NCBI GenBank assembly: GCA_020847535.1
Contig: JADLBU010000106.1
Coordinates: 1-64,000, forward strand
Direction of reading: 5' to 3'
DNA length: 64,000 nt
Origin: Phycisphaerales bacterium
Lineage (GTDB): Bacteria > Planctomycetota > Phycisphaerae > Phycisphaerales > UBA1924
Every line of letters begins with the position of its first letter. Position 1 is the first letter of the stretch. Positions 6,990-31,400 of this stretch are shown here, piece by piece. The notes beneath the pieces are model-generated. The model was not told the origin of the DNA, did not search any database, and saw only the letters and a program-made list of their open reading frames with translations. Position numbers and translations under genes: made by a program.

Positions 6990-8039
6990 TCAGTCCCTGG
7001 GGAGCGGTGAGGTGGGGTAGAGCTTGGGACCTTCCGTTTCGTTCTGGACATTCAGGCCCGCGGTGGCGGAGACATCCAGGACGAGGGGGCGACCCTGCCA
7101 GTAGAGGTCGATGGTTTTTCCGCCGGCATCGATCGAGTTGTAGAGCTTCTGGATCCAGCCGATGGTGGCGAGCTTGGAGCCGGTGCCGGCCTCTCCGAGC
7201 CTGGGCTTGTTGGGCCGTCCACCCCAGTTGAGGCGTCCGCCGCCGGTGGTCACGATCGAGAGCATGTGATCGGACTGGAAGCTCCCGACATCGACACCGA
7301 CAACTTGGTTGATCCAGGGCTTGTCTTGGATGAGGCGGAGGAGTTCGAGGCCGGCCTGGATGTCTTCACCCGGCCAGGCCCTGGTGTAGTCGATTGCAGC
7401 GCCAGCGTCCGCGGGCTTGACGGAGACGCCGATCAGGGCCTTGAGCTTGGACTGTCCCGCCTCGTAAATGACGGGCATCGGCTTGCCATCCCAGGAGATC
7501 AGGTAGTCGCGACCGGCTTCGCGGACGACAGCGCTTGGGATGCGCCAACGGCCGGAGATGAAGAGCTTGGAGCCGGGTTCGCGACGGACCGTGGGTCGGC
7601 CGTCAAACCAGCCAGACTTCTCCATCGCGCTACCGACACGGCGGAGGGGATCATCCGAGAGGGGGGAAGCCGACTGACCGACTTCCCTGGCGGCCAGCGC
7701 GAGCACCTGCTCCTGCATGTGCTTGGGGAGCCAGGTGGGGACATCGTCGAGGGAGGTTGAGGAGACCGAGAGGAGGCCATCGAGGGGTGAGCCGGTGCTC
7801 GCGGGCTGGCTGTCGGTACTGATCGCGCTGAGGCTGGGCCAACTGATGGTGACGCGAGGGGCGGAGGTGCCGATGACTTCGACAACGCGTTGCTCGAGGG
7901 GGTCAAGGCCGCGATAGATGCCGATTCCCAGTGCGCCGACCACGGCGAGCGTGAGGGTACTGGCGAGCACGGACTTGAAGCCGATGCGGGCGGGCGGGGG
8001 CTCGTCCAGCTGGGGGGTATCGATCTGCTTGCGATCCAT
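6990..8039 (-). CDS. FtsQ/DivIB-like cell-division protein (divergent)
   Basis: The 349-residue protein has a cytoplasmic N-terminus of about 25 residues, one membrane helix (about residues 25-45) and a large outer domain. The outer part includes segments like those of FtsQ: a POTRA-like start (LEQRVVEVIG), and a beta-rich region (residues ~150-185) with R-E-P-G-S-K-L-F and Y-L-I-S-W-D-G that recalls the 'yLVDedG' strand of FtsQ. The main argument is position: it follows murC, murB and ddl in the order of the classical dcw cluster, where ftsQ comes next. I chose the ATG at 8039 over a GTG at 8051 because GGAG lies seven bases upstream. Sequence identity to known FtsQ appears low. Confidence 0.6.
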   Translation of the reverse strand: MDRKQIDTPQLDEPPPARIGFKSVLASTLTLAVVGALGIGIYRGLDPLEQRVVEVIGTSAPRVTISWPSLSAISTDSQPASTGSPLDGLLSVSSTSLDDVPTWLPKHMQEQVLALAAREVGQSASPLSDDPLRRVGSAMEKSGWFDGRPTVRREPGSKLFISGRWRIPSAVVREAGRDYLISWDGKPMPVIYEAGQSKLKALIGVSVKPADAGAAIDYTRAWPGEDIQAGLELLRLIQDKPWINQVVGVDVGSFQSDHMLSIVTTGGGRLNWGGRPNKPRLGEAGTGSKLATIGWIQKLYNSIDAGGKTIDLYWQGRPLVLDVSATAGLNVQNETEGPKLYPTSPLPRD

Positions 8040-26500: not shown

Positions 26501-27940
26501 ATGTCTCCAGTCATCCAACCTCCCAACGGTACGCGTGACCTGTATCCGATCGAGGCGGCGCGGCGGCGATTCATCACCGAGGCGTGGCGTCGAGTTTCGA
26601 TCAATCACGGGTTCGAGGAGATCGATGGGCCGACCTTCGAGCACCTTGAGCTGTACACCGTCAAGTCGGGGGAGGGGATCGTCTCGGAGCTGTTCTCGTT
26701 CAGGCGGGAAGGCGGGGAGAAGGACTTTGCGCTGAGGCCGGAGTTCACCCCGACGCTGGCGCGGATGTACGCGGCGAAGGCCAAGAGCTTGTCTTCGCCG
26801 ACGAAGTGGTTCACGGCGGGGCCGTTCTTTCGGGCGGAGCGGCCGCAGCGGGGGAGGTTGAGGGAGTTTTTGCAGTGGAATTGTGATGTGGTCGGTGCAG
26901 CACTCCCGGAAAAACCTACGCCCTTGGATGTTGCAGCGGCCAACACGCGAGCCGATTCCGAGATCATCTCGTGCTGCATCGACCTGCTTCGGGAAATGGG
27001 GCTGACCGCCCAGGATGTGACGGTCCGAGTAAGCAATCGACTGTTGATCGCCGACATTCTCGAAGAGATCGACATACCGAGGAACAGGCACGACATCGCG
27101 CTGGCCGCATTGGATCGCAGCGCGAAGCTGAATGAACAAGAGATGGCGGAATTCTGCCGCAAGCAGGGATTGCCTGCGACATTCGTCAGCCGCTTCAATG
27201 AGTTCCGAAAGAAGTATGAAGATCTCCCAGCCGTTCGGGGCACAACCGGTCAGATGCTGGACCGGACACGCGGCATAGGCTCGGTGCTTGCACTCTACAA
27301 CATGCTTACCGAGAACGGATACCAGGAATGGATTGAACCAGACTATTCGGTAGTTCGCGGCCTTGCCTACTACACCGGCATGGTCTTCGAGGTCATCGTC
27401 GACGGCGAGCGAGCCGTCGCCGGTGGCGGCAGGTACGACAACCTCATCGAGATGTTCGGGGGCCCGCCGACGCCAGCGGTCGGGTTCGGCATGGGGGATG
27501 TTGTTCTTTCGCTTGTGCTCCAGGACAAGGGCTTGATGCCCACCGATGCCGAGCTGCTCGAGATCGCCGGCATGCGGCCGGATGTGTTTGTGATCTCGAA
27601 CGGGACACCAGAGGCGGATGCTCGGCTTGGGGGAGTGGTGGCGGAGCTGAGAAGAGGTGGAAAGGCAAAGGCTGGAGATGGGGTAGACACAGGCAGGATG
27701 CCTGTGCCACGAGATGGGGTAGGAGGTGGGCTGCACGTTCGCCGGTCGTACAAGGCGACCAAGAAGATCGGCAAGCTGCTCCAGGAGGCGGGAGATGTCC
27801 GTGCCAGGTTCGCCGTGATTCTTGAGTCGGGGACGGAGGCGACCATTAAGAACCTCCAGACCGGAGAGCAGGATCAGAGCAGGACGGCGATCGATCAGCT
27901 CGCGATGGAGCTTCGCAAGCGGCTGGCTGTGGTTCGATAA
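26501..27940 (+). CDS. hisS: Histidyl-tRNA synthetase with in-frame palindromic insertion
   Basis: The 479-residue class II synthetase charges tRNA-His. It shows motif 1 (P-N-G-T-R-D-L-Y-P), motif 2 (F-F-R-A-E-R-P-Q-R-G-R-L-R-E-F-L), the HisA signature G-L-A-Y-Y-T-G-M-V-F-E, motif 3 G-G-G-R-Y-D-N-L, and a C-terminal anticodon-binding domain (about 370-479). Inside that domain, between A-E-L-R-R and V-R-R-S-Y-K-A-T-K-K-I-G, there is an extra stretch of about 25 residues containing D-G-V-D-T-G-R-M-P-V-P-R-D-G-V, encoded by a palindrome flanked by 12-base direct repeats. The frame is kept. ATG 26501 gives the family N-terminus. Confidence 0.95.
   Translation: MSPVIQPPNGTRDLYPIEAARRRFITEAWRRVSINHGFEEIDGPTFEHLELYTVKSGEGIVSELFSFRREGGEKDFALRPEFTPTLARMYAAKAKSLSSPTKWFTAGPFFRAERPQRGRLREFLQWNCDVVGAALPEKPTPLDVAAANTRADSEIISCCIDLLREMGLTAQDVTVRVSNRLLIADILEEIDIPRNRHDIALAALDRSAKLNEQEMAEFCRKQGLPATFVSRFNEFRKKYEDLPAVRGTTGQMLDRTRGIGSVLALYNMLTENGYQEWIEPDYSVVRGLAYYTGMVFEVIVDGERAVAGGGRYDNLIEMFGGPPTPAVGFGMGDVVLSLVLQDKGLMPTDAELLEIAGMRPDVFVISNGTPEADARLGGVVAELRRGGKAKAGDGVDTGRMPVPRDGVGGGLHVRRSYKATKKIGKLLQEAGDVRARFAVILESGTEATIKNLQTGEQDQSRTAIDQLAMELRKRLAVVR
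27675..27722 (+). repeat. Palindromic element with 12-base flanking direct repeats inside hisS
   Basis: A perfect inverted repeat (8-base arms cacaggca/tgcctgtg, 3-base loop; 27688-27706) sits between two exact copies of gagatggggtag (27675-27686 and 27711-27722). The copies are 36 bases apart, so the duplicated unit is twelve codons. This is what a small inserted element with a target-site duplication would look like; it adds T-G-R-M-P-V-P-R to the protein. Confidence 0.8.
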
Positions 27941-28470: not shown

Positions 28471-31400
28471 ATGGCCGATGCCGCCCCGCAATCCGTACCG
28501 CGAACCGCTCTGCCGCCGCATGAGCAGTTCGTGCATCTGCACCTGCACACCGAGTACTCGCTGCTGGATGGCGGCAACCGGATCGACAAGCTGATCAACC
28601 GGGTCGCCGAGCTTGGGATGACCGCGGTCGGCATCACCGACCACGGCAACATGTTCGGCGCGGTCTCCTTCTACCAGCAGTGCAAGGACAAGGGGATCAA
28701 GCCCATTCTGGGCGTCGAGGCGTATGTCACCCCGCCGGGCAAACCGCGAACGGATCGCACGTACTCGGGCGGCGGTGAGGGTGGGTATCACCTGGTGCTG
28801 CTCTGCGAGAACCTGGAGGGGTGGAACAACCTTCTGTACCTGTGTTCGGAGGCGTTCCTCACGGGCTTCTACTACAAGCCCCGGATCGATCGCGAGATCC
28901 TCGAGAAGCATTCCGCGGGCCTGATCGCGATCAACGGCCATCTGGGCAGCGAGATCGGTGAGCACCTCCTCGACTACGAGCGCAGCGGGGATGAGAAGTG
29001 CTGGCGAGCGGCGGTTGAGAGTGCGCAGTGGCACAAGCGGGTGTTTGGTGGCAAGGCATCAGGCAACGGGCATCAGGCATCAGCAAACACCAAAGGCTCT
29101 TCCCCTGATGCCCAATGCCCAATGCCTGATGCCTCTTCTTCCCGCTTCTACATCGAGCTCCAGCACCACGTGCAGGAGCAGAACTCGATCAACAAGCACC
29201 TGATCAGGCTCGCCCGGGAGTCGGGCTGCCCGCTGGTCTGCGACAACGATTCCCACTTTCTGCTCGCGCAGGATCACGATGCCCACGACACCCTGATCTG
29301 CATCTCGACGGGCAAGCTCAAGACCGATGAGAACCGGATGCGGTACCCGGCGCAGCTCTACGTCAAGAGCCCGCCGGAGATGCGTGAGCTCTTCGAGCCC
29401 TATGGGGATGCGGGCCGGGAAGCGCTCGACAACACCGTCAAGATCGCCGAGCGCTGCAACGTCGAGCTGCCGCTGGGTGTCAACAACGCGCCGATGGTGA
29501 AGGTGCGGCGAGCAAATGGGGCACAGGCGGCAAATGCGGCACAGGCGGCAAATGCGGCAAACGTCGAGCCCGGAGGAAAGCGAAGTGGGACTGCCCGCAA
29601 CCCTGCCTCCGCCGATCCGTGGTCAGGTCTGCCGCGATGGGATGATCCGAAGTTCGCCGGGGATCTGACCGCCTGGTACACGGCGTATTGCGCCGAGTTC
29701 GAGGTTGTCCCGTTCCATGTTGAACCGGCGGCGAGCGATGAGGAGCGCAAGAAGCTGCTCGCCGAGGCCAAGGCCCAGTGCGACGCCGCGCTGCGTAGGT
29801 TGTCGGAGGCCGGCTTTATCTGGCGATACGGGCCGGATGTGAGCGGTGGGGGGGGCAAGTCCGTGACCGCCGGCCGAGCGGAGCAGGTTGCGCGCCTCGA
29901 GCGCGAGCTGGGGATCCTCGCCGACAAGAACATCTCCGCCTACTTCCTGATCGTCTGGGACTTCGTCAACTGGGGCCGCCAGCGCGGCATCCCGGCGAAT
30001 GCAAGAGGTTCGGGCGTCGGCACGATGGCCGGCTATGTGCTGGGTCTTTCCAACGCGTGTCCTGTTCGTTACGGGCTGCTGTTTGAGCGGTTCACCGATC
30101 CCGATCGCAGCGAGTATCCCGACATCGACATTGATCTGTGCCAGGATGGCCGCGGGGATGTCATCAACTACGTCCGCCAGAAATACGGCCACGTCGCCCA
30201 GATCATCACCTTCGGAACAATGAAGGCCAAGGCGGCGGTGCGCGATGTCGGACGCGTGATGGGGATGTCGTTGCCGGATGTCGACAAGATCGCCAAGCTC
30301 ATTCCCGAACAGCTCCACATCACGCTCGACAAGGCGCTCGAGCAGGAGCCCGACCTCCAGAAGCTCTACAACGCGGACGATCAAGTCCGCCGGCTCATCG
30401 ACAACGCCCGCACGCTCGAGGGCCAGGCGCGCCACGCGAGCGTGCATGCCGCGGGCGTCATCGTCGCGACCCGACCCCTGTACGAGATCGTGCCGCTCTA
30501 TCGCCAGGCGAGCAGCGGGGAGCACGAGATCGTCACGCAGTGGGATGGCCCCACGTGCGAGAAGATGGGCCTGCTGAAGATGGACTTCCTGGGCCTGCGG
30601 ACGCTCAGCGTCGTGGAGCGCTGCAAGAAGCTGATCGCCGAGTCGATGGGCGAGGCGGAGGTCTGGCGAGCCGTGGGGCGGGAGGACGAGTTCAAGACAC
30701 GGCCGGCATCTTCGAAGAACGCTGTCTCGGTCGCTCACCCTCTCGACCTGGATCGTCTCGATTTCGCGGATCAGCGCGTCTTTGACATCTTCCGCCGGGG
30801 GGATACGACGGGTGTGTTCCAGTTTGAATCTCCCGGCATGCGCCGGCTTCTCATCGACATGAAGCCCGACCGGCTCGAAGACCTGATCGCCGCCAACGCC
30901 CTCTTCCGTCCGGGCCCGATGGACCTCATCCCGGATTACAATCGTCGCAAGCACGGGACGGATCGCGTCCCGCTGGTTCACCCGATTGCCGACAAGTTCA
31001 CCAATGAGACGTACGGTGTCATGGTCTATCAGGAACAGGTGATGCAGATCGTCCACGAGCTGGGCGGCATCCCCCTGCGCGCGGCGTATTCGCTCATCAA
31101 GGCGATCAGCAAGAAGAAGGAGAAGGAGATCGGCAAGAACCGGCCGGTCTTCATCGATGGGGCACAGAAGAAGGGCCTGAGCAAGGCGGCGGCCGAGGAG
31201 CTCTTCGAGAACATCCTCAAGTTCGCGGGCTACGGCTTCAATAAGAGCCACTCGACGGGTTACGCGATCGTTGCGTACCAGACCGCGTATCTGAAGACGT
31301 ATTTCCCCGCGCAGTACATGGCGGCGTTCCTCACCTACGAATCCGCCGCCAGTGCGGTCGCGGACTGGATTCCGTACGTGGAGGATGTAAAGAAGGCCCG

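Follow-up and report, generated by a model that had tools for sequence, protein, structure and literature searches.

The window, a stretch of 64,000 nucleotides from the draft genome of a Phycisphaerales bacterium (G000; 4.94 Mb in 134 contigs), contains at 26501–27940 on the forward strand an open reading frame for hisS, the gene of histidyl-tRNA synthetase (HisRS, 479 aa), which is host to a short palindromic element. The product matches Pfam PF13393 with 138 bits and the NCBIfam hisS profile TIGR00442 with 263.8 bits, slightly below the cut-off of 286.75, and is of the Phycisphaerales type: its relatives are Phycisphaerales, in agreement with the planctomycete host named in a preliminary description of this DNA. 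The element, placed by that description at 27675–27722 on the forward strand, codes for about residues 392–407 of HisRS and is delineated by the sequence, by an alignment of 40 copies and by a coil in an AlphaFold2 model. It begins with a 5′ arm, GAGATGGGGTAG (27675–27686, forward strand), which ends in a GTAG tag (27683–27686) one base ahead of a palindrome (27688–27706, forward strand) made of an 8-bp stem, with halves CACAGGCA (27688–27695) and TGCCTGTG (27699–27706), and a 3-nt GGA loop (27696–27698). A 3′ arm, again GAGATGGGGTAG, follows at 27711–27722 on the same strand. The perfect stem and its 3-nt loop are exactly as first described, the two 12-base direct repeats are indeed exact and spaced by 36 bases, and the reading frame of hisS stays open throughout.

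Two further repeats were observed in the window. A lone GAGGTGGGGTAG lies at 7009–7020 without a palindrome, perhaps as a relic or by chance. At 29055–29145, dnaE (DNA polymerase III alpha) has an in-frame insert, GNGHQASANTKGSSPDAQCPMPDASSS, composed of heptamer-like repeats (GGCATCA, and TGATGCC in the inverted orientation), with five matches against 0.29 expected.

A dispersed family of GTAG-tagged palindromes

Within the window, the core of the hisS element occurs, with up to three mismatches, at a single place (once per strand), against 0.03 occurrences expected. Genome-wide, ACAGGCNNNNTGCCTGT with up to one mismatch has 95 forward matches (two for a reversed-pattern control), and a strand-specific 22-mer with up to three mismatches has 63 + 49 (none for the control). 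A covariance model built on 40 seed sequences, the hisS copy itself being one of them, recovers 109 copies at E ≤ 0.01, 107 of which were read; the hisS copy, with a footprint at 27663–27726 on the forward strand that includes the 5′ arm, scores best of all (80.3 bits). The search for the CACAGGCA-GGA-TGCCTGTG core and its kin that had been proposed at the outset thus yields many copies, about 109, and the window expectation together with the genome copy counts against controls rules out a chance palindrome in hisS.

The consensus of 40 stand-alone copies reads GTAG-A-N-G-N-GGTAGA(C/T)C, followed by the stem ACAGGCn-GGA-n'GCCTGT and then by GCCAC-GAGATnGGGTAG, so that GTAG adjoins the stem as GTAGA(C)-stem. 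The loop-closing pair of the palindrome covaries: it occurs in all four forms (A:T, G:C, C:G and T:A), and 17 of the 40 copies differ at both of its bases. In all, 98.8% of stem cells are paired as compared with 92.7% in shuffles; the covariation rests on this one pair, as the others hardly vary, partly since the seed pattern fixed them.

The two exact 12-mers around the hisS palindrome had been taken for a target duplication made by a very small, independently mobile unit. However, the 3′ 12-mer is family consensus: regardless of the preceding sequence, 43 of 66 stand-alone copies have it with no more than two mismatches. The right-hand repeat in hisS is therefore the element's own 3′ arm. 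No similar duplication accompanies the other copies: one tandem array excepted, the next longest left–right direct repeat after that of hisS has 9 bases, and it has no more than 7 in 58 of the 66. The 12-mer is also missing from the corresponding loops of relatives. Such an independent unit is accordingly extremely unlikely, and of the original proposal it is the small, dispersed, multicopy element that stands, whereas its target duplication falls. Target-site duplication of the MITE or IS type is likewise discarded for stand-alone copies by the 66-copy survey. The tandem array itself, at G000:C97:34657-34940 (L082), has a period of 73 and alternating hairpins of the hisS-type family.

With its short palindrome, GTAG by the stem, dispersed copies and association with both flanks of a REP-associated tyrosine transposase (RAYT), the family has the hallmarks of GTAG REPs. 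What hisS contains is a GTAG-tagged REP of the non-autonomous sort, one of the terminal-repeat family of a REP-RAYT-REP element that G000 also carries; taken alone, it is ordinary.

A tolerant loop in HisRS

Thirty hisS loci were fetched, the window's own among them, and the loop at the REP site is variable among the others. The nearest, that of the congener G103 (71% identity), lacks the REP and is 17 codons shorter at the site, having AELRRSTGRQSHGLHVRRSY where the window hisS has AELRRGGKAKAGDGVDTGRMPVPRDGVGGGLHVRRSY; the extra stretch therefore amounts to 17 codons rather than to the twelve given in the preliminary description. Another congener, G074, has a different and longer insert in the same loop, and many distant relatives have other, unrelated longer ones, which indicates that the site tolerates inserts in general. 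The REP is absent from the hisS genes of the relatives compared, and so is the 12-mer GAGATGGGGTAG from their HisRS loops; these relatives are too distant for an exact empty site. Neither transposition nor excision nor polymorphism was observed. An old, conserved part of HisRS is dismissed as an explanation of the segment by the variability of the loop and its shortness in G103. At two loci (L089 and L098), different in-frame tandem repeats (CTCAGGACTCAGG...) occupy the loop that holds the REP here.

In the AlphaFold2 model, HisRS residues 386–412 are without secondary structure, between a helix (370–385) and a strand (413–415), and pLDDT falls below 50 at 398–405 while it is mostly 88–96 in the rest of the domain. 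This coil and its low pLDDT suggest that the REP is tolerated as a disordered surface loop. It sits in frame in the anticodon-binding domain, in a surface loop that tolerates inserts.

REPs inside other genes and inside a MITE

Elsewhere in G000, REPs lie in frame in the genes of a pyridoxal-dependent decarboxylase, a CoA transferase and a PEP_mutase-family lyase, in carB (two copies), in an aroD-aroE fusion and in valS, which has three; for one intragenic host, L065, no Pfam match was obtained. By codon score, 7 of 66 stand-alone REPs and none of 41 MITE copies are intragenic, at thresholds chosen by the authors; the valS pair around the RAYT and the carB pair fall below these thresholds and were added after profile evidence.

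A MITE is a second vehicle for the hisS-type REP. Of the 107 copies read, 41 sit within a unit of roughly 90 bases with inverted GAGACTGTTTCAGAA ends (e.g., L008, L014 and L059), so that the REP is a hitch-hiker in a DNA-transposon MITE that looks IS5-like. This MITE is mostly bordered by TTA/TAA duplications, and target-site duplication is thus a property of the MITE alone. At L002 and L041, REP-carrying MITEs occur in tandem pairs, with one flank common to both.

A transposase gene inside valS

There are seven Y1_Tnp matches in G000, one of which, a RAYT with inverted REPs on both sides, is located inside a 1362-aa open reading frame that encodes valyl-tRNA synthetase (ValRS). NCBIfam finds the valS profile in two stretches of this frame, separated by a match to NF047646 (REP-associated tyrosine transposase) of 81.5 bits, or of 86.9 bits on the RAYT part alone (cut-off 80), and Pfam agrees. 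G000 has one valS gene, and all valS matches are its two halves in one frame. RAYTs are typically genes of their own; that of G000 is not, which does not place it outside the RAYT family. It has an HUH motif MPDHVH and a catalytic tyrosine in YIVNNP. Its sole match in the PDB is TnpArep 4er8, which is weak (E 0.015). The terminal arms are two 35-mers, CTACCCAATCTCGTGGCACAGGCGTCCCGCCTGTG and the same sequence with the covarying pair changed, otherwise identical.

The guest occupies, as judged from empty relatives, a variable ValRS loop ahead of the FHPERY...WCISRQLWWGH segment. Most relatives have a guest-free ValRS, the empty loop being readable in 28 of 30, and the synthetase motifs are kept across the alignment of guest-bearing and empty proteins. 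In a 1151-aa model of ValRS with its guest, the RAYT (518–650) forms a separate alpha/beta domain with block pLDDT mostly of 79–97, and the linkers (474–513 and 656–693), in which the REP-coded stretches are included, have pLDDT around 25–34. Foldseek with the whole model returned synthetases only, with ValRS 1gax as the best PDB match. The guest RAYT is thus predicted to fold as a separate domain outside the ValRS core, joined to it by disordered linkers encoded by REPs.

The host protein might be freed of its insert by translational bypass or by RNA or protein splicing. Strong hairpins at both guest ends would suit such a removal: across the 52 guests described below, the best ones have mean energies of −17.4 and −16.0, against −12.6 in host-gene controls. 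On the other hand, none of the embedded copies interrupts the frame, the Pfam matches of ValRS-RAYT include neither a Hint nor an intein domain, and a guest modelled outside the core on disordered linkers would not need to be removed. A mature host protein without its guest is, in our judgement, quite unlikely.

In-frame RAYTs across the family and the phylum

When the 120 genomes of the family were searched with the RAYT, 46 of them yielded 58 matches, all of which were read. A total of 52, from 43 genomes, lie in frame within housekeeping open reading frames: valS (21), rdgB (15), leuS (13), and one each in an hscA/dnaK-like gene, a glycine C-acetyltransferase-like (kbl-like) gene and miaA. 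Five of the others are stand-alone and form a more distant subgroup (L292–L296), and the last, L291, runs off the start of its contig. The same sites recur across genera, namely profile positions about 365–377 in valS, about 120 in rdgB and about 235 in leuS, the latter with 11 of the leuS guests and the remaining two at about 521. In several genomes two or three genes have a guest, as do valS, leuS and rdgB in G025.

As G000 and many of the other genomes are drafts, an artefact of assembly or annotation in metagenome bins has to be considered. The same arrangement is nevertheless present in the single-contig assemblies of G067 (valS) and G107 (rdgB), and independent genomes agree with one another. 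The sole rdgB is the guest-split one in 15 of 15 genomes, with the second half at the end of another contig in G017 and G084, and the leuS above cut-off is the guest-bearing one in 13 of 13, with a further, partial leuS-like fragment on a different contig in G075 and G008. An artefact is therefore exceedingly improbable. The housing of RAYTs in housekeeping genes is seen in dozens of genera.

In a sample of the phylum, RAYT matches were found in 50 of 343 genomes, and among those read outside the family most are ordinary short genes. Host homology is present on both sides of the RAYT at four of 27 loci outside the family (valS of another family in the order, purH, alaS and an FAD/FMN oxidoreductase) and on one side at seven (fabZ at three, Eco57I-type at two, DUF1156 and a DEAD helicase). 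Open-frame RAYTs in purH, alaS, fabZ, Eco57I-type and other genes outside the family are those of L309, L311, L312 and L319–L324.

Condition and history of the guests

The embedded RAYTs, 53 with the addition of L298 to the 52, have kept the two HUH histidines in 53 and 52 cases, the tyrosine in 52 and a tryptophan in all 53. Guest dN/dS is 0.14–0.37 in six of eight pairs, similar to the host parts, the other two pairs being saturated. That the guests are passive fossils, free of stops merely because the host requires an open frame, would accord with the fact that this frame enforces a stop-free state regardless of the guest, but catalytic residues kept in 52–53 of 53 at deep divergence, the low dN/dS and the abundance in G067 of the guest's own repeat family make this very unlikely. 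In that genome, the terminal repeat of the resident valS guest occurs 61 times (31 + 30, up to three mismatches, the guest's own pair included), against none for the control. G100, of the same genus as G067, has 32 copies of the repeat and no RAYT match; G000, whose guest has other arms, has no copy of it.

The left and right arms are mutually inverted beyond all 40 shuffles at 49 of the 52 guests, L240, L243 and L258 being the exceptions, and the best flank hairpin beats the mean of host-gene controls on the left in 50 and on the right in 45 of them. Across the 120 genomes, the association between RAYT matches and matches to the window REP model is only moderate (32/14/34/40; Fisher p = 0.014), with 34 genomes in which REPs are present without a RAYT match.

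On a tree built from 63 RAYTs, 11 changes of host label suffice, compared with 35.5 in shuffles; many inner branches are weak, and those with good support force at least two changes for valS and at least four for the leuS-235 site. A stand-alone RAYT on a long branch, L315, is placed among the rdgB guests. The label changes imply that guests stay long at a given site and yet have passed from one host gene to another or arrived repeatedly.

Long residence at the same sites across genera and low dN/dS would also be expected of a domesticated accessory domain, immobile and now at the service of host enzymes, for example in nucleic-acid binding by ValRS or the leuS product. Such a role fits poorly with hosts as unrelated as valS, leuS, rdgB, the hscA-like and kbl-like genes and miaA, and purH and alaS outside the family, with guests that bear their own inverted REPs, both HUH histidines and the tyrosine, and with the lack of a guest in the ValRS of most relatives. 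Domestication is, on balance, unlikely.

A probably mobile enzyme in the frame of its host

Taken together, the hisS REP is likely to come from a REP-RAYT-REP family whose transposase is an in-frame guest of the only valS of the genome, attached by disordered linkers that the REPs themselves encode. The guest RAYT would be translated as part of the synthetase, would cut REPs and move them by way of their single-stranded DNA hairpins, and would thereby scatter short REPs, that of hisS among them, while selection would leave only in-frame insertions in tolerant loops. As its frame lies within an essential gene, the guest would be both expressed and protected by its host. The mobility of REP and RAYT is inferred. 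Several points count against this reading: most stand-alone REPs are outside genes, REP and RAYT co-occur only moderately across the genomes, G100 has the G067 repeat and no RAYT match, and one of four other Y1_Tnp genes among the seven of G000 could encode the mover.

For the family as a whole, it is somewhat more cautiously proposed, as a fairly probable reading, that RAYTs have a distinct way of life, persisting as catalytically intact in-frame guests of single-copy essential or housekeeping genes such as valS, leuS and rdgB, that their terminal REPs serve at once as hairpin substrates and as flexible linkers, and that the host gene shelters them much as it would an intein, but without splicing, and ties their expression and retention to its frame, short REPs being scattered from there in trans. 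To our knowledge, the long-term persistence of RAYTs without an obvious benefit is an open question. The proposal offers a simple, testable answer: any frameshift or nonsense mutation that removed a transposase sharing the frame of an essential enzyme would also kill the host. If true, it would also mean that the synthetases of many uncultured planctomycetes contain a DNA transposase domain, that a common arrangement escaped surveys in which long RAYT proteins were dropped, and that small repeats are able to serve as ready-made in-frame protein linkers.

Comparison with known systems

Inteins and homing elements are selfish enzymes that reside in frame within conserved essential genes. The RAYT guests resemble them in being a selfish enzyme in frame within an essential gene; unlike inteins, they have no splicing domain, are REP-flanked HUH/Tyr transposases and are apparently retained in the protein. 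The in-frame residence of transposases in essential genes looks new: the open-licence PMC literature yielded no description of a housekeeping gene that contains a RAYT, and a term search of the available text of PMC3116915 and PMC3686654 gave no occurrences. As the literature covered was open-licence only, the absence of an earlier report is not proven.

The preliminary description had likened the hisS element to the in-frame palindromic elements of Rickettsia. Rickettsia RPEs are also palindromes in frame in coding genes, but they bear a different tag, CGTC at one end in RPE-4 and RPE-6, and no associated transposase is reported for them in the available part of the source, whereas the hisS family is GTAG-tagged and has a RAYT partner (PMC3733652). 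The tag thus sets the likeness aside and takes the hisS element out of the Rickettsia RPEs.

The closest counterparts are the GTAG REPs, with a palindrome stem of 5–13 bp and a loop of 2–20 (Table 1 of Di Nocera et al. 2013, PMC3733652). As excerpted from that work, they share with the present family a small dispersed GTAG palindrome, an association with RAYTs, in-frame genic copies and an occurrence in Planctomycetes; the hisS family differs in its longer unit, which has another GTAG arm on the 3′ side of the stem, in having many copies inside a MITE and in having its RAYT inside an essential gene (PMC3733652). The REPtron of Stenotrophomonas maltophilia likewise has an 8-bp perfect palindrome, a 3-nt loop and GTAG, and related RAYTs recognise GTAG and a hairpin in single-stranded DNA, with cleavage at CT; there, RAYT and REP are described as a separate REPtron, and an in-frame host gene is unmentioned in the accessible part of the text (PMC8266576). 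Finally, TnpAREP subclass 2.4 offers another in-frame insertion tied to REPs and RAYTs, according to the portion of the study at hand (Quentin et al. 2018, PMC6006769), in which, however, it is the REP that lies within tnpAREP, whereas here it is the transposase that lies within a housekeeping gene.
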